DNA of 64,000 bases, taken from NCBI GenBank assembly GCA_947568835.1, contig OX387603.1, positions 20,298,651-20,362,650 on the forward strand, given 5' to 3'. This stretch comes from Protonemura montana (taxonomy: Eukaryota; Arthropoda; Insecta; Plecoptera; Nemouridae). Position 1 is the first letter of the stretch. The number at the start of each line of letters is the position of its first letter. The position numbers were made by a program, and so were the translations under genes. This document shows, one piece after another, positions 5,351 to 56,557 of this stretch. The notes under the pieces are model-generated. The model was not told the origin of the DNA, searched no databases, and saw nothing but the letters and a program-made list of their open reading frames with translations.

Positions 5351-5388
5351 CTTACCTGCGAACAAACAGGAAAAAACAATTATTAGTA
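5351..5388 (-). other. Recursive (ratchet) splice site 1
   Basis: On the minus strand a branch-point match TACTAAT (branch A at 5383, 27 bases from the junction) is followed by a long pyrimidine tract ending in gtttgttcgcag and then at once by gtaagatcc. The acceptor is therefore joined to a donor with no exon between them; the junction lies between 5356 and 5355. This is the ratchet-point pattern known from long fly introns: the upstream exon splices here first and regenerates a donor for the next step. A second possible donor (catg then gtaaca) follows after 56 bases, which would bound a cryptic exon at 5300-5355. It is the last of the four sites in the minus-strand direction. The pattern is directly visible; use in splicing is inferred. 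Confidence 0.6.
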
Positions 5389-5676
5389 AACATTGGTATA
5401 AGATATATTAATGTTGGTACTAAACCTTCAAAGAGTGAACGGGAGAAGGGAAAGAAAAATATTGGTAATTGTTTTCAAACATTGTCAAAGCATCTTTCGG
5501 CACCTTAGATCCCGTCGTTAAACCACATACCTATGAGAGCTCTTGAAAAATATATAATGAAATTTATTCGTGAGTGTGTGTATGTGTTTTTTTATAAATA
5601 CTAAAATAAACCAGTCTTGACAAATCAGGCACCTAGAACTGATATGAAAACTGTATTAATTTATTGCCAGCAAACA

Positions 5677-5690
5677 AGCGAGCGAGCGAG
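5677..5690 (+). repeat. (AGCG)3 microsatellite
   Basis: Three and a half AGCG units. Confidence 0.85.
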
Positions 5691-5821
5691 CCGCATGGAT
5701 CCCCTAATCTTTCGATTAACGTCGTCGTGACAATGATTTAAGTGTGTTAAACGTGGCCGAGGCAGGGCGTTCTCGTCACGCGAGATACTGAACCAACTGC
5801 GATAGCATCCCACCACCCGCT

Positions 5822-5847
5822 GCACACACACACGCGCACGCGCACAC
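5822..5847 (+). repeat. CA/CG microsatellite
   Basis: Alternating purine-pyrimidine tract of CA and CG steps just upstream of the 31-bp minisatellite. Such tracts can adopt Z-DNA. Confidence 0.9.
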
Positions 5848-5870
5848 TCACAGACTGATAGAGTGAAGAA

Positions 5871-5996
5871 AAGTGAGGTTTCATCACTACTTTGGTGGCA
5901 GAAGTGGGGTTTCGTCACTACTTTGGTGCCAGAAGTGGGGTTCCATCACTACTTTGGTGGCAGAGAAGTGGGGTTTATGAAAACTTTGGTAACAAC
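5871..5996 (+). repeat. 31-bp minisatellite, four copies
   Basis: Four head-to-tail units of 31 bases begin at 5871, 5902, 5933 and 5966, the third with two extra bases. The unit begins aagtggggttt and ends with ctttggtggcag. The first three differ at only a few positions and the fourth is more diverged. A CA-rich microsatellite lies just upstream (5822-5847). The unit length is not a multiple of three, and nothing suggests it is translated. Confidence 0.95.
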
Positions 5997-8729
5997 ACAA
6001 AATACATCACTATTTCATTACACTTTATAACTATCTTACACTAGCTGATGCGGTGTATTCTTAAATAACTTACAATAAAAAAATAAAAAAATAAAAATTA
6101 TATAATAACACTATTACATAACGATTAAAAAATTGTTATTTTAGAAGCTCTTAAACACAGTTCTACGCTGACGCCACAAAGGGATGCGTCCCTCATTGAC
6201 AGTAGACCGGGGGTCACGTGACGCCAGCCAGCGCGCCACGTTGCGGCGACGATCAGCACTGCGTTTGACAGTCGCGCACGTGTGATGATCAATGGCCGGA
6301 CATATTTGCCAACGCAAAGTCAATGTATTACGTGATATCGCACGATAGGCACCATAGCTCAAACACTCGCCGTGACAATGTTTATTTATCGGTTTAACAA
6401 GTGCAGGGGCACGATCTGATGTTAAAACGCGCGGCGAGGATTTATCTGAGTGCGGAGAGATCGCACCGAATATTTTTCTGAAAATAATACGAGTGGCAAA
6501 AAATGTGGCTGCCGATTTCCTCCCGTCTCGGGCAGTCGTCACTGTTTCATCTAAACATGTCATCGGGAAGTGAACGAGAAAAGTAAGCGACACTAGAAGT
6601 CGTGATTAACATCCTGATAGTTACAACTCACGCGGCCAAGAATGAGTTTAACTGTGACGTTTATGCACCTTAATGGGGTACCTATAGTCACACAGAACGC
6701 ATCGCTCACGACAGCTTCCCTTCCCGTCGTCGTCGACCTACCAATCGTTTCGATTTCGTCGTCGCGACATTCACCGATTCCGATTACGTTTCGCCGAGCT
6801 ATATAGCCCGATGTGAATTGTATCGAAGACGGCAAAGCACACGACGCCCTCAACGACGACGTCGGCGTCGTGTTTGTGATTGCAAACTGTGCGCAGAGTG
6901 AGTTGTCGGGTAATGGGTGTGCTATAACTGTCCTAGGTCGGAACAGTTTCTGAGTAATAAATGTCAGAAACTGGAGTCGTAATGCGAACCTGATGGCACC
7001 AAACAACTGGCGGCCCTTTAACGCTGCAGTTTGCCTGTCTGCCACGCTGTGTCGTACATCCTTTCGACACCATACAGTATACACCACGCGACAACGGCAC
7101 AAGACGCGGGAAATTGTTGTGGTGTGCTTCAGGAAACTTGTGCGGTGCACAAGGTAGTCGGAGTGGCGTGAATATCAATGGTGTCAGCAGCCTCTAAGGT
7201 TTGATTGGCAATAAAAAGGCGGTAAAATTAAATGGTAAAGTAATTGGACGGCCGGTTCGTCACACATAGACACTTTTTGTAGTCTTTGCTCGGGTTATTT
7301 CGATTCCACCTGGAGATAGGCGTATCAAAATGTATGCTGGTGTTGAAAGGTACGATAACAAAATTTAAAAATATGTTCGCTTTATGAGAACACACACACA
7401 AGGGTTCGTTTAATTAATTTAGAATTATATCTTCTCATCAAAGTACGCGGCTAGTGTCTCATTATTATTTTAATTGACCATGAAATTGCCACGTGACGGC
7501 GAGCCGAGTCCAGGCCAAAGTTAGAAATGCTAATTACTCGTGTAGCAACGCGACGCGGCAGCGGACGTCGACAATAACTCAAGTTTTGCACCGAGACAAA
7601 AGTAATTAATTGCAAAATTGAGAGACTCCCCGCGTCGAAACTATTGCAATGAAATTTTCAATTCAAAGTCTGCCAGCGCGCTAGGCGGCGCAGGGTCGCA
7701 GGTTGGGGCACGAAACGGGCTGTGCGGAGGTGGGGCTAATTTCATTTTCATTAAAATTACCATAATATCTCGTTACGCGTCGAATTGGTTCTCTAATGCG
7801 CTCTATAGAGTTGCGAACGGCGAAACATGGCACAACAGTCGCAGCGCCGCGCGGAATCAGAGTATCATAAAATGGCAATTACATTATTATTCAGGACACT
7901 GTGATGGGAAAATGGCCGAAAGCCAGTAGGAGCAATTATCAGTAAGTAGTTGTAAATATGTGCGGTAAAGAAGACGCAGTAAAATATCTAACCCAAGACT
8001 CGGTGCTTTACCATACAGGTAAAACTTATTACGAAACTGTCGGTGAAGTGTCTGTGAACTCCCTCTGCAAGCTTGGCATGCTCCGGCTGTTTTGCGATTA
8101 TCTAAAACTAATTAATATGTGCAATTTAGCAATAAATCGGCGCTCTTTCATCCTCTACGCCATACACGGCACTTACCTTGCGACGCCGGGTGTTTTTATG
8201 GCTTAATAATTGAGTCAGTATTTTTAAACAGAAGCCAAACGTGTTTTTAATTTCCAACGAGCCATAAACGCGACAGTCGAGCAGTTGTAAAATCGCTCGC
8301 TGCAAACTAAAACTAAAAAAGAGGTACATAACAACGAAAAACTTTCGCAAAGTAAATGAATTGAAGATTATTACCTATACCACGTTAGGATGCCACGGAA
8401 TTATTAAGTGCCCAAAAAAAAACCCCAGCCCATGTATAAAGTGTCTATTGCTATATAGGTGTGTCTGTCTATCGCTTGTACGTGCCAAACTTTTCTACAG
8501 CCTATTACATATAACACAGGGCTATCTTTCTTAGCTCGTAAACTTGCCCAAAGAAGTCGGTTAGATTATTAGGTTAGCTTCTTCATAGGGGAGAACAATA
8601 TATATCACACTGCCGGAGCTACCACCGCGACTGCGTTTTTTTTTTAAAGCTATGTGTTGCAAAGAGAAAGATGGCTAAAGTTTAGGGGTCGCGTAACATT
8701 GCACATTCTTTAACACTCCTCCGCGCCTA
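5997..8729. other. Non-coding stretch with CpG-rich block
   Basis: About 6180-6910 is richer in CpG than its flanks and carries the longest open frame of the window (minus strand, 6593-7150, 185 codons) next to another of 150 codons (6141-6593). Neither resembles a known protein, and their Cys/Arg/Thr-rich make-up looks like chance openness. AT-rich words such as taattaattgc occur near 7600, and a good minus-strand donor (gcaag followed by gtaagtg) lies at 8176-8175 without a convincing exon. Confidence 0.4.
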
Positions 8730-8744
8730 CCCCCCCCCCCCCCC
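8730..8744 (+). repeat. Poly-C tract, 15 C
   Basis: Run of 15 C; a further C-rich stretch with 7- and 8-base runs lies at 8911-8939. Confidence 0.98.
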
Positions 8745-9952
8745 TTCACCCCCCACCCAACAAGCATCTGGGGGACTGGGTCAACCTTTATATAACTTTT
8801 CTGGAGCATACGCAACGCCAGTAAATCATTTTAACACCGTGTTATTCATTACGAGGGCTCGCGCCATCCTTGCTGGCTTTTTAAAGAACTCAGTGGGCAA
8901 GCATTTTCAACCCCCCCGCCCCCACCCCGACCCCCCCCACAAGCACGCACACACCGAAAAGGTTAAAGGGGTAGCTAAATAAAAATTTATTAGGACGCGC
9001 CGAGACAAATAAAATGGCACTGGCAGCGTTTTCAAAAAACAAAGCGTCTACGTTATTTATACGGGCACCAAATTAGAGGAGCAAAACACGCTTAGCAGTG
9101 GCCATTTCAATAGCCCTCTGCTAAATTTTCAAGGCGTCCCGGCTCTCTTAACTACGTGTTTAACTAGGATACGAGTGCTAACTATCCTTTCGAGACTCTC
9201 GCGCGAATATCCATCCATTAAATCGCCATTGTTATATTACACAAGCGAGGGCATGGCTTCAATTTCAGTCAATCTAACTTAAGTGCAAAGATGGTGCGTT
9301 TGTATAGGTGGGCTCTGGGTCTATCGAGCTTGATTGCACGCTAAGACGAGACAACCAAATCCCGGCTGTCTTAGGACAGATTAAGTGTTGTACTATACAT
9401 GTATACAGAGTTTCCCGTGAATTGAGCTGTATATGGTCCGGGAGAGGGTGGAGTGGGTGCGACAGCGGCTGTACAAGAAACAATCAATAGAGACCACAGA
9501 CGGGCACTTCTTGCCCAAAAACGGGGCCATCCCAGACGCTTTAACGCTCCGACACGTCTGACACGAATACAAATTCGCAACCACGAAAGAAAAGTCTACT
9601 CCATATCGGTACTGCAGCCGTTTCCACGTGCCATTACGAATCCAAACATTAATTCTGTTTCTCCGTAAATTGCGACCGTCGGAAGGAAATGCGACATATT
9701 GGTCCGCGTTACAAGGCTCGTATAACATATAAAAGCGCACATCGCAAATTTACAGGTCCGAAAATAAACGCGTGCAGCACGGTTGCCTCATATCGAACGG
9801 AGAACCCGACTCATACGTCGAGGACTGTCGTAAGTATCAGCCAACAGCAGTCCGAAATGGTTGCTGCAGGCAGCCTCCAGAAATATGGTTAAATATATCA
9901 AGCAATTATCAGCGGAATGGCGTACAATAATTTTGGTGCACACACGTGTCCC

Positions 9953-9972
9953 TATATATATATATATATATA
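9953..9972 (+). repeat. (TA)10 microsatellite
   Basis: Ten uninterrupted TA units. Confidence 0.97.
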
Positions 9973-12078
9973 CCTACTAAAACCAAGACAAGTGTGTTCT
10001 ATGTAGTTTTGGGTTTCCCGTTTTCGCGCGTAATTAGAACACAGAGGGAGCTGCGGAAAGCTGACCAGAAGTTTATATTCTCTGCTGTCTCTGCCAGCTG
10101 ACACACAAGGGTTATGGGGGGAGGGGGAGGTGCGGTTGAGAGAAGGGAACGCCCGAGCTTTTTGGTCCCGCGAAGAGGGCATTGCTGAGTTTCATGCTTG
10201 CGCCGGGCTTGGGCAACGATTGGGCAAAAGGTGGGCTATAATAATGTGTAACAGTTTTGGGCAGCAGCCGCGTACCAAGGCAATTAAATGTACACATGAA
10301 TGGGAGTTGTGTGGCATGATGCTGGCTGGGGTGGCAAGGGTAGAGGCGAGTTAAGATTGTGCTCGGTCAAATTGACGACGTGTGTTGAAAATTTTGCAGC
10401 AGTTGAATTTTATTGTGGGGCGCACGCAAATATCACGAAGAGCCGTAAACGCGCGCTCGAGAATGTGGAATTAAGTAAAACAAAGTAAAATAAGCCGTGC
10501 AAATGAGCAAGGTAGAACAATGTAGAAAAAGTCAGGAAAAAACACACACACAAAAAAAACACAAGGTGAAAATGCCCGTTTTTTTTACTAGATTCGAACA
10601 CGGAAGAAAAGTGTTACGTGATCAAAAAATGCAAACGTTTATGCTTCTACCGCGACCTGACCTGCTATCCAAATCGTGATAATGACACGATAAACCATCT
10701 CGGAGCAACTATAAAAGGGATAATTAATATATTATATAAGCAATGTTATCTTAAAAATGCTAATAAGACAGCAAAATATTTTTATAATGTCAATTAAATG
10801 CTAATATTATGAAAATTCTGCGGCGCGTTCACTGATAGAATAACTTGTAGCACAAATGTCTACACAACCAATCAAAGGGACCGACGCCGCCGCCGCTGCA
10901 CACAATCGAGTGTGTGGAAAGTAAATCAGCCGAGCATCAGAGGTTGATGAATGCATAATTATCGGCTGCTTATTTACTTCCGTACAATGAAGGATAGCCG
11001 ATTAGTTACGATGTTGTAGCACAGCTAATCAACATAACCTTCCTTGGACCGACGCTAAAACGCCGCGATCACTTAGTCGACGTGTCGCTGTTCATTTGAC
11101 TCGCACCGACGTCGACGCCAACGCCGGAAAAGTGACAAGTGACGCCCGGAAAATGATCGAGTCGACGCCACGACGTCCCGTCGCATGAAACGACGCCTGC
11201 TTTGCGGGGAGCAGGGAAATTATCGGTGCGCGCCGTCCGCGCGGTAAGACGACGTCGATGTGTGTGTACCGACGCCGTCGACATCGACGCCTGGCGTCGC
11301 CCGCGCGGCCCGATATTGTTCCAGAAACACGACGTTGACGTCGTTTGTCAGCGTGAATCGAGTTGCAACTATCGCGGTGATAAAATAATAGACCATTCAC
11401 GTCAATCATGAATGTTGATGGCTGTTTGGCGACGACGGTAAAAGGGATCAGGTTAAACTGTTTCTAAGGAAATCTAGGCGCCGAAAAAAGAGTTTACTGG
11501 CGGAAATATCTTTCCCGAATCTGAGACCGCGTGCGTATTACTTGAACCGAGCATGAACGTCCAATTATGTGATTTGGGTCACAAATTTTGATACAGAAGA
11601 TCCAAAATATTTACCAAAATATTGATGGAAAAAGTAGCTTAGCTCAAACATGGTGAATCCGAAAAAAGAATTTTGTTTATAGTCAGCCTAAAAAATATCA
11701 AATAATAAAAAATAAATAAATATCGAAATTGCAAAATGTCGATTTTAATTGGCCTTAGACACGGACACGTAAAATGCATACACCACGTTCATTCTGCACG
11801 TGGGCCTGGGAGTTACGTTAAATAAAAGTGTGTTCGACCCCCTCCCCCCTGAACCACGCACGTTCGTCGGCATCGACGCGAAGTTGTCGTGTGCTAGTGT
11901 GGGATTGAGCCATCAGTCAGTGCCACCCCCCATGGCACCGGCACCATTAATAACCCCCGCCGCCCACCTCCCGACGCCCGACGCCGCCGACGCCCGCCAC
12001 AACTTGCAGGGAAGAGGCAAAACGATACCCGGGGAAGTAGAACGACATCACCGGCACCGAGATGCCCGAGTTAGCAGG

Positions 12079-12114
12079 TGGTACCGGTTGGGGTAGCTCT
12101 TGGTACCGGTTGAG
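12079..12114 (+). repeat. Direct repeat of tggtaccggttg, 22-bp period
   Basis: The 12-base word tggtaccggttg starts at 12079 and again at 12101. Both copies contain ACCGGTT, the core bound by Grainyhead-type factors; a related aaccggta lies at about 12240. The 22-base spacing is about two helical turns. Binding is inferred. Confidence 0.6.
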
Positions 12115-13351
12115 GTTGACACTCAGACACTCATATCAGATGGGAGTCTTGGACGTAATGGCTGCACTTTGGCACTTTCTTGTTACGGGAACGCAGCAGT
12201 CTAGGGTTTTTGACTGGATAACTTGTACGTTGAATGTGGTAACCGGTAGTATCCATGGTTTGGGAAAGGCGCGGCGCGGTTACGAGAGAATTGGTCAGTT
12301 TTAAAACACTTTGCAGCTTTTAGCAACGATAATAACCAAATTTCACAGCATGAAATTCCAAAGCAGTTGCACACAGTTCTGGAGGAACGGTAATACCTCA
12401 GAGAAAGGAATCTTTGGTAACACTTGGCAAAACAGAAATAGGTACAGTGGCCCAACAATGACAAAATAATTTGTCTGTGTCTTTAAGTTACACAATTTTA
12501 CAAGTACCAAAGTAACAAAAATTACGATTGCAACTTTGCGACCACTGTTACCACCTCGTTTGCAGAAAATCAGAAAGAACTCAAAACGGTGGAGGTGCCG
12601 TATTGTGACACATAATTAAAAACTTTCTGGCAAAGTTTCCAAACGACTCTGCAGACGATTAATTGAAGAGTATCACGTCGCTCTAACGAAGTCGCCGATA
12701 AAATGGCGTACACTACTCCTATGAGACATGAATAAAAATATGGGTAAATTTTACACCCGCGTTTCGTAACGATCACACAATTGCCACTTGCCAGCAGAAC
12801 CCATAATATTATGCAATATTTGAGTCGCTGTGAATGCAATAACAGATACTACTTTATCTCAACTCTTACAGTAGAGTTTTACTGGCAATAAAGATAAAAC
12901 GAAATTACACCGCACTTGCATGCTAAATGTTGCATTACAAAGCTAACAAATCCTTTGACGATGATCAATCGTTTACATAGGAGGGTAGGTACTAAAATAA
13001 GTTGTGTAGCGTAAACTTAAGTATGCCATCAAAATGCTATTTTCAGAAAAACCGAGCTGGAAAAGCTGTTATGTTGCGGCGTGCGCTTCCTTCTGACTCG
13101 ATGCTCGGGAGAAAATATTTCTGTATCGCGGATTTGTCTTAATTGGTAAATGACAACATGAAATGGTTCCTTTCTCCTCGATAGAAACATGACAGTAACT
13201 TTAAAAAACCACTTAATATTCTGTAAAATTACTTAGTCTTTAAGTATTTAATTTGATATCCATTTGAAATTTAAATAATTCCACCGGGTAAGGTTTGGGT
13301 AAAAGCGTCGTCCGTTTTGGACTCACGGGTTGCCATGGCATGGAGATTAGA

Positions 13352-13410
13352 GCAGGGCAGGGCAGGGCAGGGCAGGGACAGGGCAGGGACAGGGCCAGGG
13401 ACCAGGACAG
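13352..13410 (+). repeat. GGGCA/GGGACA minisatellite
   Basis: Four perfect 5-base GCAGG units pass into longer, degenerate units such as gggacagggc and ccagggacc. G-runs of three recur every five to six bases, so the plus strand could form a G-quadruplex. The repeat lies at the start of a CpG-rich patch. Confidence 0.9.
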
Positions 13411-15551
13411 AGCTCGTCGCGGTCAGAGCATGTAAGTAATAGGCCGACCGCGCGCGCGACGCTCTCCGAACAACTGTCACTTGGACGTCGACGTCGGCGT
13501 TGGCGTCGCCACGTTCCCCATCGCGGGTCACGAGCACACTAGCGGTGTACAACCGGTTCGATTCAAAGTTTGGGCATCACGCTGCATGTGACGGTACGTT
13601 AATGGTGCCCGTTAATGGTTTAAATAACTAGAAGGGTTAACACCCACATTCCTAAACTACCTTGAAAATGCATGCAAAAACGTACTATTTAGGTCGTGAG
13701 CATCAAAACAGACGTGCCTGGAATCTGATTGTGATAAGACTATAAAAAAAACGCCTTGCCAAGCACTGATTTAAAATACAGAATCGAAAAAGCACGTTGA
13801 AATTTGACAAATGTTGCTTAAAAGGCAAGGTCAAATGGGATGACCATTCTTTGGCGTGTAACCGATTGGTGCCTCGCGCCAACGAGAGAGCGCAGATCAC
13901 GGTATTCCTTCATGGATGTCAATGCAAACGACGCCCCCGATGCCTCCCCCTAGCATCCCGCCACTATTCGTCCAATCTACCGTCGACAGCGTCGTCGTGC
14001 ACGTTTGACGGCGACACGGTCAGACCGGTCCGATCCTTCGTCCACCGTGAGACACGACCCGCTAATAAATTAACTCAATCAGCTGGCGAGCAGACGCCGA
14101 CGCCGCGTCGTCAGCAAATCAGGCGGAGTGTGCTCTGCGCTGTGCGTCGGTCACGTTAGCTGTCGACATCGGCAGGGTGCTGGCTTGACGCTAACCGTCA
14201 GCCGTCGGCAATTAGACGCGTCGCGACGCCGACAGGGCACGGGGTGGGAGAGGGCGGGTAATTGGACGCGATCTGTCAAGGACATGGACAAGGTGCGATT
14301 TGGCAATCATTCATTGGCGGGGTTTAATCAGGGCATTTATAGTCAGCGTTCGGGTCAAGTAGGTATAAAAAGGAACCCTTTTCAACTTAACCAAAATCAA
14401 ACTGCAACTGGCTTTGTTTACATATGCTTTTTGGTGAATTTTGAGGGCACCAATTTTCCGAAATATGTTTATAGTTGGTTTCGGGGCTACTGTTACATTT
14501 TCAAGTTGCTTAGAGCTAAAAGGTGTGGGGTCCTCAACCAATAAAGCTTTTAAAGATCTATAGCTAAGAAGAAAAATCGAAAAAATACCAGAAGTCAAAA
14601 CATACTAGGACTAGCCAATTGTTCAATGCATGTTGATTTGTGAAAAATGTATGAGCGTCAATGTTCGCATGTTTCCGCGATTCTCCATCCGAAACCATCG
14701 AGTGGTTCCCGGTTGCTTAGCGCCACACGCACAATTCGCACGTGATTCATATTTAAACGCATCACCGATGATTGAATGACACGCGGCGTACACATAAAAG
14801 AAGCATGGAGGTCGCTGTGCATCGGAAATCGACATCGGGCAAACGAGATTGATACCAACTATTTGATGACCACTTCCACCGACCGACCGCCGATCGCGCG
14901 GAGCCAGAGCAGATTAATAATTCAGCGGAAAAATCTGATCAATTACTGATGACTACAATCTACTTCGACTGCATCGTACCAACTGACGAGCAATCATTGA
15001 TTTCATAGCTCCCATGATTCGCATTGCCGTAGTACGGTTCATATCGGAGTTGATACAGGGGTTATCTTCAAATATCTCATAATGCAAGATTGAGGAAACG
15101 AAAATTGGTGAAATCGAAAATAGAGCATGTGAATTGCAATAATTCAAACTGAACAATGGACATGCCCGACAAGAAAGGAACGCGACATTCGCTACATGAA
15201 TCCATGTCCAATTCAAAAAATTTAGATCTAGAAAGGCATTGTCGTCAAAATCGCCCATGGTTTAGATTCTGGTGGAAAAATCGACGCAGCACAAACTGAC
15301 AAAAAAGCATCGCAAGTAGACATCACGCCCTCTGTCGATCTGGACTATTCCCCTTCAAAACGTCCCTTGCATTATTGACAAGGCCGGCCGCGCGCTGGAT
15401 TCATGATACTAGGCGGGATAGACTGAGGGAGACCAGAGAACCAACCGGGATCCAAGCCGTTCGGGCTGGAATAATTCAGGAATTCTGTCCCAATCTCGCT
15501 AAGTGCGTCTGATTAGATTAGAACGGACAGTCGAGCAAAAGGCATCAGTTG

Positions 15552-15607
15552 GTTGTGTTAGCTGCCTGGCTCCTCGTTCAGGAGTCAGGACGCCCCCGTC
15601 CGAGTCC
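15552..15607 (+). other. tRNA-like promoter boxes with strong hairpins
   Basis: A near-match to the RNA polymerase III B box (cgtccgagtcc, 9 of 11 positions, 15597-15607) follows an A-box-like tagctgcctgg (15559-15569) at 38 bases. Between them a 10-bp stem (15565-15574 with 15580-15589, loop cgttc, one G-U pair) is followed by a second stem GGACG/CGTCC with a four-base loop. The arrangement resembles a decayed tRNA gene or the head of a tRNA-derived SINE, but no full cloverleaf or acceptor stem forms and the SINE body is not identified. Confidence 0.3.
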
Positions 15608-16165
15608 TAGACCGGCAACTTTTGCGCCCGTGAAACACTCCTGAGACATGATTTCCAGGACATTTCGGTGCGGCATGTCCCCGGGAGTTAGGACGAAGCG
15701 AATCCAATACGTGAAAGTGCGTGCGCAAACCTGTACACACACTTTCAGGGATCTTTTAAAACGAGAGGTTCAGTGCTAGGTGGGGTGATACGAATCGGAC
15801 TAAGCAACCAGGTATAATTGAAAAATAGTTTACAAAGCAACCATTGTTTCAATATTCGATGCAATTTTTTCAGATTGAGAGTTAAAAATGATACCCAACC
15901 ATAGTCCCAGATCCTGCAAAAACACTGATCGAGCACCACATAGATGTCTTTTTTCCTCGGTCTTAAGAAACAGGAAGAGAGAATCAGCAGTGGAGCAATT
16001 TAATATCCGAAATTTTAACGACCGTGTTAATTATGAGGAAAGTTTTCGAAGTGAGATTATTACAAGAGCAATGAATCTCGCCAACATTCTCAGACAAACC
16101 TTGTCTCCGAGCAAATTGTCCGGGTAATTAGTAATTGCTTTTAGAAACACCTATAGACGATAACT

Positions 16166-16182
16166 CCCCCCCCCCCCCCCCC
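16166..16182 (+). repeat. Poly-C tract, 17 C
   Basis: Run of 17 C after gataact, followed by gacccacccg. Confidence 0.98.
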
Positions 16183-17600
16183 GACCCACCCGCAGCAAAG
16201 TACAAAACTCCACAAGACCGCGAAAAAGACCCCGAAAAAAAAAGTGCTAGGTGCACAAAAAAAGGTGTCGGAGGCCATTCACAAGTTCGGAGAGGTTCAC
16301 TTTGGAACGTTTTAACTTTCGGCCACGTCCCGGCAGACCGATGACAATAAGCGTCACGAGCGTCCCTCGCAATTCCCACCACCGACGCCGAAAAACTCGA
16401 ATTTACTGTTTGCCATCTCGAAAATTAAACCCGTTCATCATTCGTTTGGTCGGGCAAGGCGTACCGACGTCGTCTTCGTCGGGGCGCTCGGCTCGGCTCA
16501 CAGCGGGTAGTGTCACAATCTTCTTAGCCACCTGGGGCATCCCCGTAGGGGGGGTGCGACAAGGCGGCGTGTGTCTGCTGGCACGGGGGGGTAGAAGGGT
16601 TGGTAATGTGCGTCAGTGTCGGTAATTAGCTGTTATAGAAGCAGACCGCCTGCGTTTGCCTTGCAATTGGTGTAAGTGTTTTGTTTTTGAATAAGTTAGG
16701 CGAAGACGGTGGCGTTACTCTGCGTAGGAGGAATCGTGGAAAGCTGTTCGACGGTGAAAATGAATCGGGAACCGCTTTGATGCTTCCATGGTAATGGTTC
16801 ATAAAAATCGATCTTCTGATCCTTTCCCCACAAAACACCATTTTGAATGCAACCATGTGAAGTATATCGAAATTCGTTTCTGATTCTTCAGATATTTTTT
16901 TGTCAAGCATCCTACAAGAATTTCTGTAAAGAACTGACTTTTCCTTCCAATTTTAATAAATAAAGCAACTTAGCATGTGGGTTAACGACATGTTAGTTAC
17001 AGTAATGAAATTAAAGAGGGCCTTGGGCGTGTACACCTCAAAGCGTGCCTAACGACGCACGTTGCATGCATGATTAATGATTAACGAAGCTGGTCACCAA
17101 GGAGGTATTCTCATTGCCATCGCTAACAAGACCGCAAATCTGCAGGGACAAGACTCTTCCAATTTCATTGGGCATTAGTTTCTTTCTCTCTCGCTCTCCC
17201 CGTCGACCGCAATATCCCACGAATGTATAGGATATATAACAAATTGATCCCAGAGCATTGCTAGATTATTAAATACGAAATGATCGGCGAGCAAGCTCCG
17301 AGATGGGAAAAGGTAGATAATTTATTATTTATAGCATTCCAGCAGAAGTCTAGCAAACACTCGGAGGGATTGCCGGCTCTCCTGGCCATCGAGCACAGGC
17401 AATAGAACCGCGATCAAAATTGTTCCATTTTGGTCTGATTGCATTGCTTTTCCATCAATGCATGCCGCTGTGCTGGCCATTTACAAGCACTGCACAGAGA
17501 GAAAACCACATCAAAACATTTAATTAATAGGAGATTTCTTATAAGCGCTATTTTTCCAGGATATACACAATGATTTCATTGATTTACAAGTGATATAGTG

Positions 17601-17700
17601 TATTCCGTGAGAGAAGATACTATTTCAAAGCGCACTAGAGCCATTTTTCTATAAGAGCTAGTGGAACTGAATTCATATAGAAGGCTTCCTCTCACGGGAT
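17601..17700. repeat. Inverted repeat with inner hairpin
   Basis: CCGTGAGAG at 17605-17613 pairs with CTCTCACGG at 17689-17697. About six further pairs extend the stem on both sides with one bulged base. Inside, CACTAG (17633-17638) can pair with CTAGTG (17658-17663). The loop is long for a microRNA precursor. Confidence 0.5.
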
Positions 17701-20968: not shown

Positions 20969-21022
20969 CGAACGTGCTTTGGCTGCCAGATTTCTTGGAC
21001 GGCCAGAAAAGAAAAGTGGACA

Positions 21023-44146: not shown

Positions 44147-44169
44147 ACCCACCCACCCACCCACCCACA
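44147..44169 (+). repeat. (ACCC)5 microsatellite
   Basis: Five ACCC units followed by ACA. Confidence 0.95.
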
Positions 44170-44697: not shown

Positions 44698-44709
44698 CCC
44701 CCCCCCCCC
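44698..44709 (+). repeat. Poly-C tract, 12 C
   Basis: Run of 12 C following agcccct and followed by tgctgccgg. Confidence 0.98.
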
Positions 44710-45344: not shown

Positions 45345-45365
45345 TTACATTATTTAATAATGTAA
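45345..45365. repeat. 21-bp AT-rich perfect palindrome
   Basis: TTACATTATT and AATAATGTAA are perfect 10-base arms around a single T; it could be a dimer binding site or a small cruciform. Confidence 0.6.
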
Positions 45366-46730
45366 CAAAGCAGAAAAAAAAAACAGGTAAAAATCTGTGC
45401 GAATCAGGTAATTTTCATGTAATTACTAGACCAAAACACAATCCCAGATACGCATCTCATTCGGCGCAGCGTTCAAGAACACAATAAAACCATCTTTGTA
45501 CAGAGCCAACGCACACGTCCATCTCCATAACACACTGGCCTGCACTAACCAAACGCAGTGCACACATGCATAATGCACCCCAAGTACGCAAGTGCATACG
45601 TAATGCAGTGTGCATATCATCTACCCACGCTGCATGGGCACACATACACTCACACAGGCAACGCTCGGCAAACACTAACGCGCAGTAATTGCACAGGAAA
45701 GTGCACCAGTGCAGTATGCACTCGACGACAGGGGTATCTGATTAGTGGTAATCCATGCATGCACTCTAGGCCAGTGGAGGTGGTCGCACGTCGAAATGAA
45801 CTGACGATCAACTACGCGACAAAGATCAATTAGTAGATCTTCACAAATAAGGAAAGAATCGCATCAAGAATTTCAAGTTTTTAAAAGAAAGGCAATTGCT
45901 AACCCCAGCCCTACCTTCCAGCTCCTAAAGCAAAAATGTTTAAAAGAATAAGAAAATATCAAATTAGTACTAATAAGGCAATCGATTCATTTGTGGGTTT
46001 GACGACGCACTGTTTTGACTACTGTTTAATGGCGCCGTTGAATGAGTGGATTGTGATGATGATGAACTTAGACTTGCCTAGTAGGAAGAATGGCAAACCC
46101 GGTCTACATCTTCAATCCGAAGGACGGAATAACACGAACAGGCTTCCTCTACTAATCCATGCTGTCGAGAGGTTGATAAGCAAGGCGAATGAAGTTGCTT
46201 TACTAGCTTTCATCCCTCCAACCTCTCTCCCAAACATAATTGGTCATGTGTATGATGGTCAGCCATCCAACACCTGACTCAGCGCAGTGTTGCTTAACTT
46301 TTGCGGTCCCATTAGAACCGGTGTTTCCAACATGTCGAACCGTTGGGTTAACTACGGCAAGACAGAGTTGCCGGTGATTGCAAGTAAATAAGCTCAATTG
46401 AAACAGTTATCCAAATAATAACAATCAGAATAGGCCCATAGTACATATATATATGGGTTGTTTTTTCACGGAAACGTTAGCTATCGATTTTCCAAACGAT
46501 ACATTCAGACATCAAAGCTGTGAAAACAGCAAAACCTAAACGAAACTCCAAACGGAAAATTATGATAACTCAATTCCAAAGCCTGAACATAGAATTTGGT
46601 GGTGCTTTCAAAGTATTTGAGAGATCGACGGTGGTGGTGCCACGATCACGCGTGACAAGCACCAATCCACGCGTTGACAGCGCACACGCACATGCGAGTG
46701 AATGTATGCTGCACCTCGCACGCACCTTCC

Positions 46731-46744
46731 CGGTGACGTCACCG
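46731..46744. promoter_or_regulatory. Palindromic CRE site
   Basis: CGGTGACGTCACCG is a perfect 14-base palindrome containing a full cAMP-response-type TGACGTCA. It lies in a CpG-rich patch with further TGACGTG-like words at about 46,782. No transcription start is evident nearby. Confidence 0.35.
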
Positions 46745-48032
46745 CTGCGTAATTACACCCGGTGTACAGTTCGTTTCGGCTGACGTGTCACCGCGTGTCT
46801 CCGAACGACCCCCGAAACTGAGACCTAATCAAGTTTTGGTGCAGCTATAACCTGGTTCCAGGATCGTTTGTCAGCAAAGATTTTTTTTTAGATTGCCGTA
46901 AGAACCCTTGTTAAACTCAAATTTGGTGAAAAAGCATTTGTTTTCTTCCCTGAAGATAAACACAGAAAGCCCATTGGATCACTTTTCCGAATTTCTCTCT
47001 GACATGCCACGATACAATGCACTGGTCACTTGTTTTTCGTCCCATTCCAAGTGCTTCGACTTGAGTCATAAGGCGCTGTCAAGGAAATATTACATCCATC
47101 GCAGTGCGAATCGCAACAAAGCGTTTGACAAATTCGCCATTCTAAAATGACTAACAGTGGTGACATCTTACAAGAAACACACTGTAGATAGCAAAGCATT
47201 TCCACAATGCCTGGACGTGCTATACACAGTATAACAGTGTTCACGTCACTCCAGCTCTGAGCACCACCTCTAACCACTCTATTAATAAATCTACCTGTTA
47301 AAATATTGGCCAGGATGTGGGTGCTGATTACAATCACACCCTACATACGAGTCGAGCTACGATATTTTTTATTTTTAGCAAAAGAAAATCGTTTTAATCA
47401 TACAATACACGATCTAGCTAAAAGTCACAGTAACCCAAGTGAGAAAATGGGGTAGATAATGTTCGAATTAGCATGGGATGTGATTTTTTTTTTTTGGTAG
47501 CGCGACATTTAACAATGTTTCCAGACACCGGGATACGAACGATAAATAAAGCGATTTAATTTTAATCCGATCAAATTATTTGTGAGCGAACTGTAGGATT
47601 AAATAGCACCGTTTGTAAAACTTATAGCCCAACCCTGCATAACCTATCGGTGACGTTATTATTCCAAACAAGAGCCGAAAAAAGGGCGCAAAGAATAAAT
47701 AACCCCACGCGTGTGCAGCTTTTTCGGCGCTGGCTACGCAGAAAAAACGGCCTGCTTGCGCTGTTATTTCTGTTCGCACCTCGGACCGATAAAATGGCAC
47801 ATATCTCTCAACCGGCCAGGATATTGCCAGCAAGTCGCGAGTAACAGGCAATCATTCGAGCGATATTTTCATTTCGTAAATACCCACGTGATCGCTCTTT
47901 TAAACGCAGGGGTTGTAAAGTTAACGGGCAAGGTGGAAATATTGGTGGTGGTCGACTTGAGCGATGTCCAACGATTACAAAAACGTGCCTTGAGTCGATA
48001 AATAGTTTGTTTAATTCGTGATACTGATATTA

Positions 48033-48105
48033 TCAAGGAGGCTGGAACCTCGTTCTTCTTTTTTGTTGCTAGTAAAACAGAAGAACGCGGTTCAAGGCTT
48101 CTTGG
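48033..48105 (+). ncRNA. Pre-miRNA-like hairpin
   Basis: Two arms of 30 bases (48035-48064 and 48074-48103) are complementary at 25 positions plus one G-U pair, around a 9-base loop (gttgctagt). Two further pairs (C34-G104 and the U33-G105 wobble) extend the stem to 73 bases in all. Four isolated single mismatches are spread along the stem, the shape expected of a microRNA precursor. The 5' arm includes ggaacctcgttcttc and the 3' arm gaagaacgcggttcaagg. The plus strand folds slightly better because of the G-U pairs, but the minus strand would also fold and would agree with the inferred host transcript. I match the arms to no microRNA I know. It could instead be a chance fold-back. Confidence 0.4.
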
Positions 48106-48271
48106 ATCTGAATCAATCAAATGGCGGGTAAATTTTGAGATAAGCGGCAAATGCGTGCGCATCAGGAGCAATTCGGTTTTTAAAAGCAGATGGAAACAAA
48201 GTTACTTAACGCAGAAAAAATGAAAAATTTATACTCGCTGAAAACTCACTTCGTTAACTTTACTATTTTGT

Positions 48272-48291
48272 AAAAAAAAAAAAAAAAAAAA
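48272..48291 (+). repeat. Poly-A tract, 20 A
   Basis: Run of 20 A. No element body or target duplication is visible beside it, so a retroposon tail is possible but not supported. Confidence 0.95.
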
Positions 48292-48630
48292 CAGATATTA
48301 AAACTTTTCATGATAAAACGTGTCAAAAAAACTAAAGCAATAATAATTACGTGAATCACTTCGGGGACACGTGGCCCTCAACTGCCAAACAAAATTCATT
48401 TAATAATAATTAACCGAAAAAAAAAACTTCATTCATAATTGAATAGACCAGCGAGAGATCATCAGCGCGAAACACCACGCATCGAGCAAGAATTCCATTA
48501 TTATAATTCACCTAATAATAAACGTAGCCCCATATAAAAATGTGTGAAAACACGTCTACTTCATACTCGAAAACCAGATATTTTACCCGACTCCTATAGC
48601 GTTTATAAAATTATCAAGATTAAATAAAAG

Positions 48631-48659
48631 GTATAATTAATTTTATGACATAATTATAC
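48631..48659. repeat. 9-bp inverted repeat GTATAATTA
   Basis: GTATAATTA and TAATTATAC are perfect arms around an 11-base spacer. Both arms hold a homeodomain-type ATTA core. Confidence 0.5.
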
Positions 48660-49471
48660 GTATTGCAGCCAAGTTGGCTATGCGGGCTTGCGGTCGCACC
48701 GCTTTGACGATAGCATCGTATTATGCCTATGCACCGACTCTACAGTATACCCACAGACATAACCCACACGTCACTTCAAAGGTGCACAAGTACAGTTCTA
48801 AACGTGTTTCCACCGAGCATGCCCTGTCATGTCCTGTCACACGAATCGTTGGCTTTCGAGTGCATGTTTTTTTGGCGGTGAAAATAATTACACTTATGTG
48901 CGAATGAAATACTTGACATAACACTACGACTATCGTGTTCCTCTGCAATGCTTCCAGGCGTTATGCTTTCATAAAAATCAAAAAGCAAATCAAGGTTCGT
49001 TTTATTTCATTTTTATGTTTTTGGCCACAGAGAGATCCGCGTCGTCGCGTCTGCGAATTGAGACGGTACGGTCGGTGCGCTACACTCGCCGTTATTATTT
49101 TGCGGTGCTTTGAGCGGAGATTTGCAGTGTACAGGGGAGAAATTACACATCAGAAACATGACAGTTGTGAATTTAGAAAAAAATGTGTATGCCTTGAGGT
49201 GTGATGCCTTTGCGCATGAAAAATCCCTCGGCCATGAACGAGTATATATAGCAAATCAAACGCACTCAGCTCTAGGACGTGTAAATTCAACGCGTACTTC
49301 CCGATTAATTTGTCCAATCGCGCTATTGTAACCAAAGGTGGTGTCAAACCGTCCATGATAAGCAACCAGTATATGACGACCACGAAACAATAAATAATGC
49401 ATAAATAATCAGAGCCCTTATCACTGCAACCATTGCATTTGTATGTATAGTTAGAGGGCCCATAACTAACG

Positions 49472-49588
49472 CAAAAATTACTGTCAAAAGACTACTTTAC
49501 CGGCAAAACTGGAGGATGCTAGTAGATAGGGTCACCGTCGTTACAAGTACTAAGAAATTGCATTTCGTTATTTCTCACAGATTACGCT
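49472..49588 (+). repeat. Diverged dispersed element, copy B
   Basis: Counterpart of the copy at 3,938-4,054, same orientation. Shared blocks include accggcaaaa, gaggat, gtcac, aagaaat and cagat. The copy may begin slightly earlier, at the taacta block near 49,471, if a four-base gap is allowed. The family is not recognised. Its 30% divergence from copy A suggests either an old insertion pair or sequence held by selection. Confidence 0.65.
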
Positions 49589-51530
49589 CAATTAATATTT
49601 ACCAATGCTAACCTCAACGAATGACATGGATGTCGATATTTTGAGCCGTACATATTTTATTGTGAACGTTTATTAAAAATTGTGACCGCGAGCGCCGTCG
49701 GGTGGCACCTACCGTTACCACGTGTTTCAGCAGAAAGTTTTAAATAAACGCTAGCCCTCTGACTGTAACTACCAACTCAATGCTAAAACCACACTACAGC
49801 CCTGCTTTCAGAAATCACAAAACTCGGTCATTTTCCTGCGATAAGTACGGATACAATAAATCGCAGACAAGGCTTATAGGTGGGCGTCGTTTTCAACGGA
49901 GCAAAGCTGTTCTATATCTGCAAGAGCGCAATACTGCTAAGTCTACACGACAATACGGGGTCATCAATGCATAGCCATGCACGCTGACCACCCCACAATG
50001 TACGCAAAGCTCGGTCACTTCGACCTCCGTGAATATTCATAGGGGTAGTCGCCGTAATTTAGAATGCCGAGGAAGGGTGTGATACCCTCGCGCGCTACGC
50101 CTTTTCGCACAAACCTCTCGACTGGACGAAAAGTTTTAGATAACGACGTAGTGGACAGAGAAAAAAGAGTGTGCCGAGGTGGGGGGGATGAATCTGAATA
50201 ACAGGAAACTATCAAATATGCACGCCCCTTTGGAAATCTCATCACGTTATTTTTAAACACAAACACACACGCGACGCGGGAAGTGAGGATGTCTCATTTT
50301 TAAATGAGAACAGTCTGCTTGCAAGACCCGTGTTTACAGTATACACGCAATGGGCACCCATTTTCGGTGAAAGAAGGAGGGTGAAATTTTTATGAATGTC
50401 TTTCTCTTGTTGTATTAGCAGCAGATTTTTGTGGTAAACACTGCAGCGTGGTCGGTGAATGGGTGTTCAGAGAAACGTTTGATGTAAATTAGTAAGCGAG
50501 ATGCCACCCTTACGGAAACCTGAAGGGCAATTAAAAACAGTGGACTTCGCAGAAGCTTTGTGGTTCTAGCTAGACCGAAGGGATGCTTGGAATACCGTGA
50601 TTATATCTCTTGTTCTTTGCATTACCCGCGATTGCTTGCTGCATGAAAAATTGTTCACAATAAACAGACTTATTTGTTTATTTTGACACACATTCCAATT
50701 ATTATACGTGGAATTGGTTACTTTCGGATTGGTTGAACAATAGGGCATCGCAAGTCTTTGCCATCAGTCTCTCTACGAGATTTGCGGACAGCGACGGAAA
50801 GCGAAAAACTCAGGAAAAACAGTAGCGGGAGGCCATGCTCGAACCAGAGAAAGAATGGCCAGCTCCATAGGAGGGTGGGTGGTTAGGGCTACCCTTGGCT
50901 ATATTTGTGCGAGGGAACGAGGAGGAGTGAGCAGCGAAATGGAGTTCTGATCATTAGAACGGCCACTATTTCTTTTATGCTTTCTCGTCTTCACTCCCTC
51001 GTGCTTGATATCAAAGCGCTAACTGAAGAACGGAGGTGCTGCCGAGAGCAGCAAAGTGAACATTCTCTTCGCTAAACATCGGAAAACCGTAGAAAATAAA
51101 ATAAGCAGTCATCTTGCAGCCATGTTCGCGGTGGCAAAATTGGCACTGCACTTTTTTAGGGCCATCAACCATTAGGGTGTCCAAATGAAAGTAAATCAAA
51201 GCTCAAACTTTCCTCGAAATTTGCCATCGGAAACAAAAGCCATCGACGTCCACGCAGAGAAAATAACCAAGAAATTCTTCCCGCGCTCGGAGCCATGAAT
51301 TTTCCCCGGCACAAATAAAAAATCCCGCGCCTGCCCCTCCAAAAAAAGCACTCGGTGCACATAAATTCGCGTTCGGCACACGGTGCGATTAGTCGTTGAG
51401 AAATGCGAATCAAAGGTCATTTTCGTTGGTCAGCGCGGTACATCACTTCTTACTTAGAGCCAGTGCAAGATTGATGGGAGACACATTCGAGTAAAAAGCT
51501 GCCGAAGCCGTCGCAGAACGAACCACAGCG

Positions 51531-51546
51531 CCCCCCCCCCCCCCCC
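51531..51546 (+). repeat. Poly-C tract, 16 C
   Basis: Run of 16 C after ccacagcg, followed by tccaccctt. Confidence 0.98.
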
Positions 51547-54500
51547 TCCACCCTTTCCACAACCCCCTTCTTTGGTAAGGAAGAGCGCCGCGGTGGACAA
51601 AGAGTGGCCGTCGGCGGTTCAATGGTGGCTGTTTTTCGCCTGGCATTTGGTCATCATGAGTGAGTGACTCTAGAAGGCCTTACCGCCCTATAAGATCCAG
51701 AATTCAAGCTTCAACCTCTGGTTGGTGGAATTTTAGTTATTGGTCTGCTAAGCCCTAAAATATTATGTAAATGTTGCACGCTAGGAAAAGAGACCTGTTT
51801 GCTCAATCCGCGGATGTCGGAATGTTCAAATTCCACAATTTTCAACGCTCAGAGAATTGTATCCAGTACACAAAACCCAGCAGCTAACATTTAGTGTTGA
51901 AGGTTTTACAGAAAACGAGTTAGCCATGTTGCCTTGCTCGGAGGAGTAGTCGGCAACTCACCGAGCATCTAAGACTCTCTATGAGATCGCCGGCGTCGGC
52001 TCCCTCGGAGGTGGACAAGGCGGAGGGTGGTGGGCGGCGTTGGGATATGAAGATATCACTCACTGATAACCAGACAAGAAGCAAGACAATAGCTCGGCAG
52101 CCCGCACCGCTCGACCATGTCAGATAATGCGACTCGAATCTGGAGGGAAAAAAATGAGTCGGCCCCGAACTTGTCAAGTGTAAGACAGCATGGCGTCTCG
52201 ATTGTCTTTGTCGTCAGTGATTGTGGTTGGATAACAGTTAATTAATAACTCCTACAAGGTATATACGCGCGATCATTTCGACTTAAGCCATGTTATGAAG
52301 AGCCCGTCTAGCTTCCGTAGGTTTCGAAACTGATTAGTGTTACTGTCAAAGTCAGATCTGAATTCCTAATTCAATTTGGCTTCTTTTTTTTTCCTGGTTG
52401 TGTAACAGTTGCGCAGCTCAATCGGAGAATGTTATTACGGCCTAATTTGTTACGCAACTCGAATGGCAATTAGCTAATTAAATATTAGCGAAAAAAATTA
52501 AACGCATTTAAGTCACGTGCAGGTTTATATAGGAATGCTAAACACTACTTTACGGTAATTAAACCAGTCGACGAAACATAAAGGTGACATCAACTATCAA
52601 AAGTACCGGACGGACGTCATCAGCAAATTGATATAATTAGTGGTGATATAAAAACCAGTGAGGCAGAAACGCGGATCTCGGTCAGTCCACAAAGTTTTTA
52701 GAGATGCGGTAAATATCGCTGTGATGCTACTACGTATAAGAATGCTGCAATTGGCCGCGAGACATATCGGTGGCACTGGCTGTCCAGTCTGTCCAGCAAT
52801 CGCCCGAGAGTCAGCACGCGTGTCAAAAAGTGTAACGTCCCTCTTCGAATGGACGGGTGACGATAGTTTAGAAACTTGGACCCTCCGGGGACGAAACGAA
52901 GAAGGTGACGGCAACTCACTCGGGTCACTTCTTATTCGTGTTCGGGCGTATCAGCGCGGGAATATGCTCGGCCTATCCACAGCATTTATTCTTTCACTTT
53001 TGTATATGGAGCACCGATGAGCTTTAAATATGGGGATTACATTTTTGGCGGTTTTTTTTAAGGGCAGTGGAAAAGAAATGTAAACATCTATTTCCCTGAT
53101 GGAATTCGTAATAGATAACAGAGGAGCTCGAAATATTTGTACTTACAATTTCGATTAGGGAATGACGACATGAACTGCACATTTGAGATCTGAGAAATGT
53201 CCACAAAGGGTTACCATGATAGCGCTGTTAGCTACTTTTTCGAAACTTTCCCGTCATCGACAGGGGCTGGGGAATGTTTCATCTAAGACCGCACACTAAA
53301 GGTGGACAAAAGGCCTCCCCGTTTGGTTGAAGGGCTGAAGTGCCAAAACGCATGAAGAAATTAAGGCCGGCTACGTGGGCCGGTCGGTTGGAGGATATGA
53401 TTACTACGAACGGCCGAGAAAAACGAGGCCGGGGAACGGAAAAACGACGACGGCGCCGGCGAAAGGAAAGCTCGAGGAAAAGCGGGAAAACAACGTCGAT
53501 AACTACCCCGGCTGGCGACTCTGACGTGGCATCCGCCGGCTTGCAATAAGAACGAATATAAGGAGAATGTAAGAAGGAAAATAATGAAAAGAAATCCATC
53601 CCCAGGATGCACATAACTTGAGAGTCACATCTTTGAGCTGGAAGACGCTGGGGACTTGAAATGCCGGAGCGGTCATCACGGTTTATGGAGGAAAGATTAC
53701 AGGTTTTTAAAGGAATGCTCAATTATTTTCCTCCTTTTCTCCTACAGCTTTTCCGCAGGAAATGTTCAAAAAGGAAATATTAGAAGGATCGCCAAATAAT
53801 CACTACCTATGAGGGTATAAATAAGTGTCAATGTCTGATATTTATACAATGTTTGCTGGGACCGTTGAACCTGCACATTCAACGCTGGGACCTTAGTGAG
53901 CTAATAATGATATCATTGAATATATTTATGAAACAAACCAATTAAAACACCGTTTGACCAGTACACCTAAAGAGCACACCGAAATGCAAGCGTTCCGTCG
54001 ATTTCTCGCTACCATTTGCCATGAGGGCCCCAGATGCTCATGTGGTGAGTGTCTAGCAGTTATGAGAGACCGGGCTATACGACCTAGCACACGTATCTTC
54101 ACGCCAGCCGGTCTCCGAGAGGCTGTAGGATCGTCTGGAGGCCGTCGGTGATGGCCGTGGGGGAGGGTGGTAGGGGGGGTGGCCCGAGAAAGAGGGGCAG
54201 TTAATGAAACACCCGGGGTCAGAGTCGAGGGGCGCGAATGGATGGCGGGGGTGCACCGAAATACTCTGGCACGATGAGGATGTGTGAGGATGTGAACGAG
54301 GGTGGGGAGGGAATGAGAACTGACGACCTATGAGGCTGGCGAGCGCCCGCGACATTGCCCCGCAAAACTGGCAACTTTCTAACCGACCAAAACGGTGGCC
54401 CCAGCCCCTACCCCTGTCGCGTCCCCGAAGACGAGAATCACTCCGTGGCTACGACGGGGTCGCACCAGAAAGCTCGCGACGACTCGTTGCCGAGTAATTG

Positions 54501-54556
54501 TGACTGAGCACCCCAGAAGCCATTGTTGCCCGGTTCATCTTGTGGTCGGAATAAAA

Positions 54557-54586
54557 GGGTGGGCAGGGTGGGCAGGGTGGGGGGGC
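54557..54586 (+). repeat. GGGTGGGCA tandem repeat
   Basis: Two and a half units of gggtgggca ending in a 7-G run; a possible G-quadruplex. Confidence 0.85.
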
Positions 54587-55339
54587 GTAGTACCAGAAAT
54601 TAGGAACTTTGGACGTGGTCGCAGGTCTGGTTAGGATTTGCTTGTGTGTGAACACGAATATAATGAATATACGGAGGAAGCGACTTCCAAAACTATACTT
54701 GCAATTTACGTTAAACTCGTTCACGAGGATGGTTTGGCGACCAGGTGGGTACATGAAGATGGTGTATTTTAGCGCAGACTTGGCGGGCGCAGTTGCAAAT
54801 GCGAACCATCCGCCCAACGGCGCCACATCATCGGCATGATACCGAAAGAAGTTAGCGCCTTGAGCCAGAATTCAAACGCACTGGTCAAAATTGAGTAAAC
54901 AGAAAAATAGAATTTCGATTTTGGGAGTTGTAAGCAAGATGAGGGAATGTTAAGACGAGCATTGTTCAAACAAACACTGCCCCGGGTGCCGCGAACAAGA
55001 AACCAATGCGAAATATTTGCTTTCGGTGGCAGGGAAGATTCATAAACAGCCCGATTCGATCATCAATGTAACCCGGCCACAGCTCCTCGGCCGATCGCCT
55101 GGCATAATATTTAAACTGCACGGAATTTAAAAACAAAATCGGAAAAAAATTCATCGATCATTCGCGTGCGTTAGTCAAAACATCTGGAGGCATCGAGTTC
55201 GATGTCTTTTCGTCGATGTCTGGAAGGTTTGAATATTTAATCGGTAATTCAAATGATTAAGATTGGCAATGGCCATGGGGGAAGTATCAAAACTTTAATA
55301 GTTCCTGGTCTATAAATTGCGCGTACATTTAGATTTCTA

Positions 55340-55371
55340 GGAGAGGGAGGGAGAGAGACAGAGAGAAAAAA
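55340..55371 (+). repeat. GA-rich tract
   Basis: Imperfect GA/GGA tract with several GAGAG words; a possible GAGA-factor target if the organism is an arthropod. Confidence 0.85.
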
Positions 55372-56192
55372 TACTTTGGCTCGGTATATGTAGCCCAAAT
55401 AATTGCCAGCATGTCGCTTTTAAATAAATTACAAGCTGCTTGTACATGCAGCAAATAGGCAAAGCTTATATAGCTGCGTCATAATTAGGCTAGATCGAAG
55501 AAGATAGAAATGCTGAGAGCAAATCGTAATTATCTGCCAACACTGATTACCACGTAAAATATTGGAGATCGATATCTATTAAATTACATTCAATTACTCT
55601 ATACCACGTTGAGCTGGATAAAGCCTCGTGAGGCTAACAACTTTCGTTTACGTATATATACTCTATGGCAAAATAGCACACACCGAAAAAAATTGATATA
55701 TATTTGCAAAGAAGGTGGAACTTGCGCTGCCCCTTACTAAGCTGACAAAAGTAAGTTTTTCAATTTTAACATGTTCTGTTTGATCTTGCACATTTGAGAA
55801 ACATCTCATTTTCTTCTGAAGTGGTCTTGAAATCGATTTACTGACCACCTAGAAGTAATTTACCAGAACAGATACCAACTAGACCTCCATGCCAGCAATC
55901 AATTACCAGAGCTCAGAGCTCATTGGACCTATCTACCTCTACAATAACCAGAAAACCTTAGGGTCATGATCAACAATTAGTGCAAAATTTCGCAAGGTGC
56001 TCGCAAAATTTGGGCCAAAATATCAAAACCTGGAACGAAACTATGCAACGACGAGTTCGTGAGGAATTTAGCCGCGCTGTTGAAGTTGCACGTTGGGTGG
56101 GTGGAGGAGGGTCGAGGGGATGATTTATAACCAGCGAGTAGAGACTGTTTAATTATAGGTCGTTATCTGGGACAACAGGAGCAAATATTTGT

Positions 56193-56206
56193 CCCCCCCC
56201 CCCCCC
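56193..56206 (+). repeat. Poly-C tract, 14 C
   Basis: Run of 14 C after tatttgt, followed by aagcttctg; it lies 0.3 kb past ratchet site 4 in the minus-strand direction. Confidence 0.98.
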
Positions 56207-56517
56207 AAGCTTCTGAATAAGTAAAGGTAGCGAAACACCAGCTGATGTACACCGAGTATGATTAAGAAGACTACGAGACTGCAATAAAATGTAAACAATC
56301 GTAATTTTAAATGTCGAGAATGTGATATTTCTTTATTTTAAACCCGTCGTTGGTAACCTAATCTTATATTTGTTCTAAAATTGCGTATCTTTTCAGAGAA
56401 GGTGTTTTAACCAGCAATAGCTACCACACGTTTATATTGAATTAATCGTTTGACAATGCTTACAGTTACTCCTCTATGCCATCCGCACACCATTAGATCA
56501 TTAAACCGCCACTCCAT

Positions 56518-56557
56518 CTTACCTGAAACGACAGAAAAACAAATAAAATAGTTAGAA
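56518..56557 (-). other. Recursive (ratchet) splice site 4
   Basis: The minus strand reads ttctaac (branch A at 56552, 29 bases from the junction), then a T-rich tract ending in tttttctgtcgtttcag, directly fused to gtaagatgg. The junction lies between 56523 and 56522. A second donor, act followed by gtaagc, lies 59 bases on, bounding a possible cryptic exon at 56464-56522. In one phase this stretch is open (reads KMEWRFNDLMVCGWH). It is the first ratchet site in the minus-strand direction, 1.5 kb after the candidate exon at 58.0 kb and 22.6 kb before site 3. Confidence 0.6.

Follow-up and report, generated by a model that had tools for sequence, protein, structure and literature searches.

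When the 64,000-nt stretch of Protonemura montana DNA analyzed here (the window) is viewed together with its flanks, four fused acceptor-donor sites within it and two further upstream very probably serve as ratchet points for the recursive splicing of intron 2 of extradenticle (exd/PBX), which is 120 kb long. The host gene of this array is extradenticle, on the minus strand. Use of the sites in RNA, the order in which the steps would follow one another, and the skipping of the short exons behind the sites (RS-exons) are what we infer from the sequence. The array would be a named case of a Hox cofactor gene spliced in several steps, its junctions predicted to the exact base.

Throughout, a site is numbered by the G of its donor GT. 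The first-pass annotation of the window had placed four fused acceptor-donor sites on the minus strand at 56,522, 33,966, 21,027 and 5,355, and all four are found at exactly these positions (Table 1), each with the core CAG/GTRAG. The pyrimidine content claimed for them (at least 12 of 15) also held, with counts of 12, 13, 13 and 12 in the same order. A branch word of the form YTNAY does stand upstream of all four, at a distance of 22-30 nt, close to the 23-29 nt that had been given. About eight YAG/GTRAG words had been roughly expected in the window; there are six (one plus, five minus), and, as had been claimed, only those four have 12 or more pyrimidines in 15 beside them. The remaining two words, at 43,846 (plus) and 63,759 (minus), have 9 and 5 of 15.

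Table 1. Coordinates of the exd locus, its predicted ratchet points and candidate RS-exons, and same-strand groups elsewhere in the genome. Positions are those of the window, continued into its flanks, unless a contig (C) is named.
Feature	Position	Strand	Details
Window	1..64000 (= C2:20298651-20362650)	minus	inner part of exd intron 2
exd coding exon 1	97,914-97,715	minus	consensus splice sites
exd coding exon 2	97,156-97,083	minus	consensus splice sites; ends in CAG
exd intron 2	97,082 to -23,056 (= C2:20395732-20275594)	minus	120,139 bp, phase 1
exd coding exon 3	-23,057 to -23,307	minus	consensus splice sites
exd exons 4-6	further down than exon 3	minus	consensus splice sites
Predicted ratchet point 56,522	56517..56553	minus	acceptor TTTTTCTGTCGTTTCAG + donor GTAAGA; CTAAC 30 nt upstream; 19.1 bits
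Predicted ratchet point 33,966	33961..33995	minus	acceptor TTCTCTGTCTTTCCAG + donor GTAAGA; CTAAT 25 nt upstream; 19.6 bits
Predicted ratchet point 21,027	21022..21055	minus	acceptor CTCTTTTCTTTCCAG + donor GTGAGT; TTAAC 24 nt upstream; 20.9 bits
Predicted ratchet point 5,355	5350..5385	minus	acceptor TTCCTGTTTGTTCGCAG + donor GTAAGA; CTAAT 28 nt upstream; 20.0 bits
Candidate cryptic RS-exon, 59 nt	56464..56522	minus	donor GTAAGC; if included, frame shift leading to a stop in exon 3
Candidate RS-exon, 78 nt	33889..33966	minus	donor GTAAGT; in frame, with no stop codon from exon 2 through exon 3
Candidate cryptic RS-exon, 74 nt	5282..5355	minus	donor GTGAGT; if included, frame shift leading to a stop in exon 3
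Group of three fused sites	C1:12015945-12046261		same strand, spaced 10-41 kb
Group of three fused sites	C12:9804523-9852848		same strand, spaced 10-41 kb
Group of three fused sites	C15:6799701-6869191		same strand, spaced 10-41 kb
Group of three fused sites	C16:23325464-23370870		same strand, spaced 10-41 kb

The sites were scored with a matrix of 26 positions, 20 for the acceptor and 6 for the donor, set by hand from fly frequencies, over the window and 100 kb on each side (264 kb, both strands). The four window sites score 19.1-20.9 bits, and the six highest-scoring sites in the 264 kb (82,377, 68,866, 56,522, 33,966, 21,027 and 5,355) are all on the minus strand, score 19.1-21.5 bits, and all join acceptor and donor motifs around AG/GT; the runner-up on either strand reaches 15.5 bits. 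When the strict rule of 12 or more pyrimidines in 15 was applied to the 200 kb of flank, it returned 68,866 (minus, 21.5 bits) and -68,614 (plus, 15.5 bits), and loosening it to 11 of 15 added 82,377 (minus, 20.8 bits). Sites 68,866 and 82,377 are therefore out-of-sample finds, both within the intron that holds the window sites. Strong fused sites could also arise by chance and have no function, and fused words do occur randomly: reversed versions of four of the patterns used in the genome search below match 14 to 38 times per genome. On the sense strand of the intron (120 kb), however, an order-4 Markov null gave a mean of 0.0275 sites of at least 19 bits (maximum 1 in 400 simulations) against the six observed, while for the 264 kb, both strands, 15 simulations gave 0.47 sites of at least 18 bits. 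The six sites share one strand and one intron, and two of them were found outside the original window, which makes an origin by chance extremely improbable.

Scored with this matrix, the acceptor halves of the six sites (11.4-12.4 bits) exceed the acceptors of exd exons 2-6 (6.3-10.7 bits), and their donor halves (7.7-9.0 bits) compare with 7.2-9.0 bits for the donors of exons 1-5. At all six, the closest other AG lies at least 35 nt upstream. The word YTRAY occurs between -50 and -15 at four of the six sites, against a background of 0.24, and CTAAY at three of the six, against 0.05; neither is found in this interval at 82,377 or 68,866. CTRAY is present at 7 of 16 other sites, hand-chosen from same-strand pairs in the genome. 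These branch-word counts are suggestive only. A 31-bp tandem repeat (3.8 copies, window 5871-5990) lies about 0.5 kb upstream, on the minus strand, of site 5,355.

The exons of exd/PBX were first recognized on the minus strand in a coding-score scan of the flanks, and were placed with hand-typed probe peptides. The joined protein has a PBC domain (Pfam PBC, 2.8e-86) followed by a TALE homeodomain (Homeobox_KN, 7.2e-17; Homeodomain, 7.9e-16), and alignment of the homeodomain to 4cyc_B, which is named Extradenticle, shows identity at 75 of 75 residues. Exon 2, which ends at 97,083, and exon 3, which starts at -23,057, flank the array, and all six sites fall inside the very long intron 2 on its sense strand. 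The single giant minus-strand intron proposed in the first-pass annotation is thus borne out, and because exons 2 and 3 flank the array on that strand, the entire window is intron. The open reading frame listing, a tRNA search and Rfam at gathering scores revealed no gene within the window, and a Pfam scan of three of its six coding-like segments gave no match.

Further downstream in the flank, from -99,400 to -80,000, the minus strand carries a run of EGF exons and LamG-like stretches that by eye resembles crumbs; Pfam confirmed EGF in both of the exons that were scanned. As these lie on the same strand as the array they were considered as its host, and were rejected because the exd exons stand between them and the array. 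Their shared strand is also what speaks for assigning the sites to some minus-strand transcript other than exd, an assignment contradicted by the position of the array, which is entirely between exd exons 2 and 3. The sites might otherwise be part of a dispersed repeat with a fused site inside it, but the window gave no Rfam match, the three segments scanned matched no Pfam family, and comparison of the 600-bp surroundings of the six exd sites and the 16 other sites yielded just two matches, 26 and 31 nt long. Another transcript or a repeat is scarcely credible as the source of the array. Elsewhere in the flanks we observed a plus-strand C2H2 zinc-finger open frame of 501 residues (-63,249 to -61,747) and, between 99,700 and 146,000, open frames resembling trypsin on both strands, one for a reverse transcriptase (111,342-113,651, plus) and a plus-strand bromodomain gene; in this last flank one trypsin-like, the reverse-transcriptase and one bromodomain frame were scanned with Pfam.

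The six sites cut exd intron 2 into segments of 14,705, 13,511, 12,344, 22,556, 12,939, 15,672 and 28,412 bp. The removal steps of 22.6, 12.9 and 15.7 kb proposed earlier have the right sizes and are three of these seven. Because recursive segments in flies typically measure about 9-15 kb in the available text of PMC6110457, the segments of 22.6 and 28.4 kb are long, and the matrix scan of these two found no weaker extra site above 12.1 bits.

If the six sites act as ratchet points, exd exon 2 would first be joined to the acceptor half of 82,377, a step presumably aided by exon definition that spans a short RS-exon with its downstream donor. The junction would recreate CAG/GTRAG at the end of exon 2, and this regenerated donor would outcompete the donor of the RS-exon and join the next ratchet point, the cycle repeating until exon 3 is reached. 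Intron 2 would then be released in seven pieces, as lariats of 14.7, 13.5, 12.3, 22.6, 12.9, 15.7 and 28.4 kb, and the mature exd mRNA would keep no trace of the steps.

Such a mechanism leads one to look for a second donor shortly downstream of each site, which we scored as an RS-exon donor when it reached at least 7 bits at +20 to +130. Four of the six exd sites have one, at +47, +59, +74 or +78. At 82,377 the second donor comes only at +177/181, and 21,027 has no good RS-exon donor, its best being 3.5 bits at +190 and 3.4 bits at +59. Inclusion is predicted to bring a stop for four of the five candidate RS-exons, the exception being the 78-nt exon at 33,966. With exonic context included, the regenerated CAG/GTRAG scores 11.5-12.8 bits and is stronger at all five than the RS-exon donor (4.6-9.3 bits), whereas on intronic positions only, the RS-exon donor exceeds the ratchet donor at 68,866, 33,966 and 5,355 (three of five).

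These same short exons could be read differently: the six sites may be the acceptors of ordinary alternative exd exons that happen to start with GTRAG, the short exons being expressed and recursion incidental. The second donors at +47 to +78 at four of six sites would suit this, as would the 78-nt exon at 33,966, which is in frame and open. Against it stand the stop brought by four of the five candidate exons, the stronger regenerated donor at all five in full context, and the recurrence of the fused geometry genome-wide, so that we regard ordinary alternative exons as a very unlikely explanation of the sites. The 78-nt candidate could nevertheless be expressed, as an insert in the PBC domain; a structure-bank search with this insert within the N-terminal part of exd returned no match and is uninformative on function. 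If recursion does take place, the choice of an RS-exon donor over the regenerated donor might act as a switch on Exd, stepwise splicing thereby tuning a Hox cofactor as it tunes the Ubx microexons of flies, an idea we consider quite improbable. Were it true, four of the five candidate RS-exons would yield a poison transcript and the insert at 33,966 an Exd isoform with 26 extra residues inside the PBC domain.

The genome (258 Mb, 34 contigs) was searched with fused-site patterns, using the reversed patterns as controls. Matches exceeded their controls in the strict pattern (14 against 2), in three others (41 against 14, 59 against 16 and 42 against 16), and in a pattern fitted to the six exd sites (81 against 38). 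Merging the matches of four patterns (41, 81, 59 and 42) gave 164 sites, among which pairs 1-80 kb apart lie on the same strand 40 times and on opposite strands four times; equal numbers would be expected if there were no strand bias. The excess is retained when the exd intron is left out (25 against 4), and again when C13:5.88-6.40 Mb is left out as well (24 against 1). This latter interval was set aside as one 18-mer is repeated there on both strands, as a repeat would be. Both strands of C13:5888944-6378332 bear fused sites, five in all; three of these are one 18-mer that is present again at C2:15345095, and the pattern resembles a repeat family with a fused site in its sequence. The four same-strand groups on C1, C12, C15 and C16 (Table 1) are probably further recursive introns.

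An RS-exon donor at +20 to +130 is present at 19 of 26 other genome sites: at eight of 10, which comprise eight loci of the strict genome pattern and two sites in the Hox cluster, and at 11 of the 16 hand-chosen sites. The first donor at these 19 sites lies 44-71 nt downstream in 18 cases and at 118 nt in one. Control bins of 110 nt contained a donor at 0-3 of 16 sites (the exd sites included) in the first set and at 1-4 of 15-16 in the second. This suggests that the grammar known from flies, a ratchet point with a second donor mostly 44-78 nt further on, recurs across the Protonemura montana genome.

Ubx is the classical case of recursive splicing in the fly according to the available portion of PMC8605326, and its homeodomain is found here at C16:2992425-2992655 (minus; 100% identity over 77 residues), with a Ubx-like first exon at C16:3080812-3081069 (minus; 62% over 84 query residues). 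On the same strand, C16:3036272 is a fused site with an acceptor of 15.1 bits, a donor of 9.0 bits and an RS-exon donor at +52. It lies about midway between the Ubx exons, 43.6 kb from one match and 44.5 kb from the other; in the accessible text of PMC6110457, single ratchet sites of flies tend toward the intron midpoint. A second fused site, C16:2890460 (minus), with a second donor at +58, lies on the 5' side of an Antp-like homeobox at a distance of about 105 kb; a probe for the Antp N-terminus had no match.

We found no paper that links recursive splicing to extradenticle in a literature search that misses most subscription papers, and searches pairing it with PBX1, Hymenoptera or honeybee gave no report of the exd intron by title or abstract start, again in a corpus mostly outside the subscription literature. 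Exon 3 of human PBX1 starts, we assume, at the codon matching the start of exd exon 3, which would make the introns before them one ancestral intron. We know of no recursive splicing in human PBX1 intron 2. That intron, directly 5' of exon 3, is giant like exd intron 2, measuring 229,182 or 166,397 bp by transcript in the available part of PMC10499895; the psyllid exd gene is described with seven exons and six introns in that of PMC9933525. Should insects and humans both have a giant PBX intron 2, the gene would offer a route to when and why very long introns gain ratchet points.

Sites of this class are known by sequence outside flies, because an excess of RP-sites in large introns is reported in the accessible text of PMC2773006 for bee (ratio 4.0), beetle (8.0), mosquito and sea urchin; bee introns longer than 50 kb have 0.484 RP-sites per 100 kb, against 0.122 on the complementary strand. 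The exd array shares with the insects of that study sequence-only evidence for RP-sites in large non-fly introns. Whereas the text available gives averages, the present case concerns a single gene and adds a test of the downstream RS-exon donor. In flies, a ratchet point depends on a cryptic exon that is about 50 nt long, carries its own donor and is skipped because the regenerated donor wins (PMC8605326, as far as its text is available). With the Drosophila ratchet points, as described in the accessible parts of PMC8605326 and PMC6110457, the exd sites have in common the fused acceptor and donor, their place on the sense strand of a very long intron in a developmental gene, a short cryptic exon with a weaker downstream donor, and a number of sites that grows with intron length. 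They differ from the Drosophila sites in being known from sequence alone and in two segments that exceed the 9-15 kb given there as typical of the fly.
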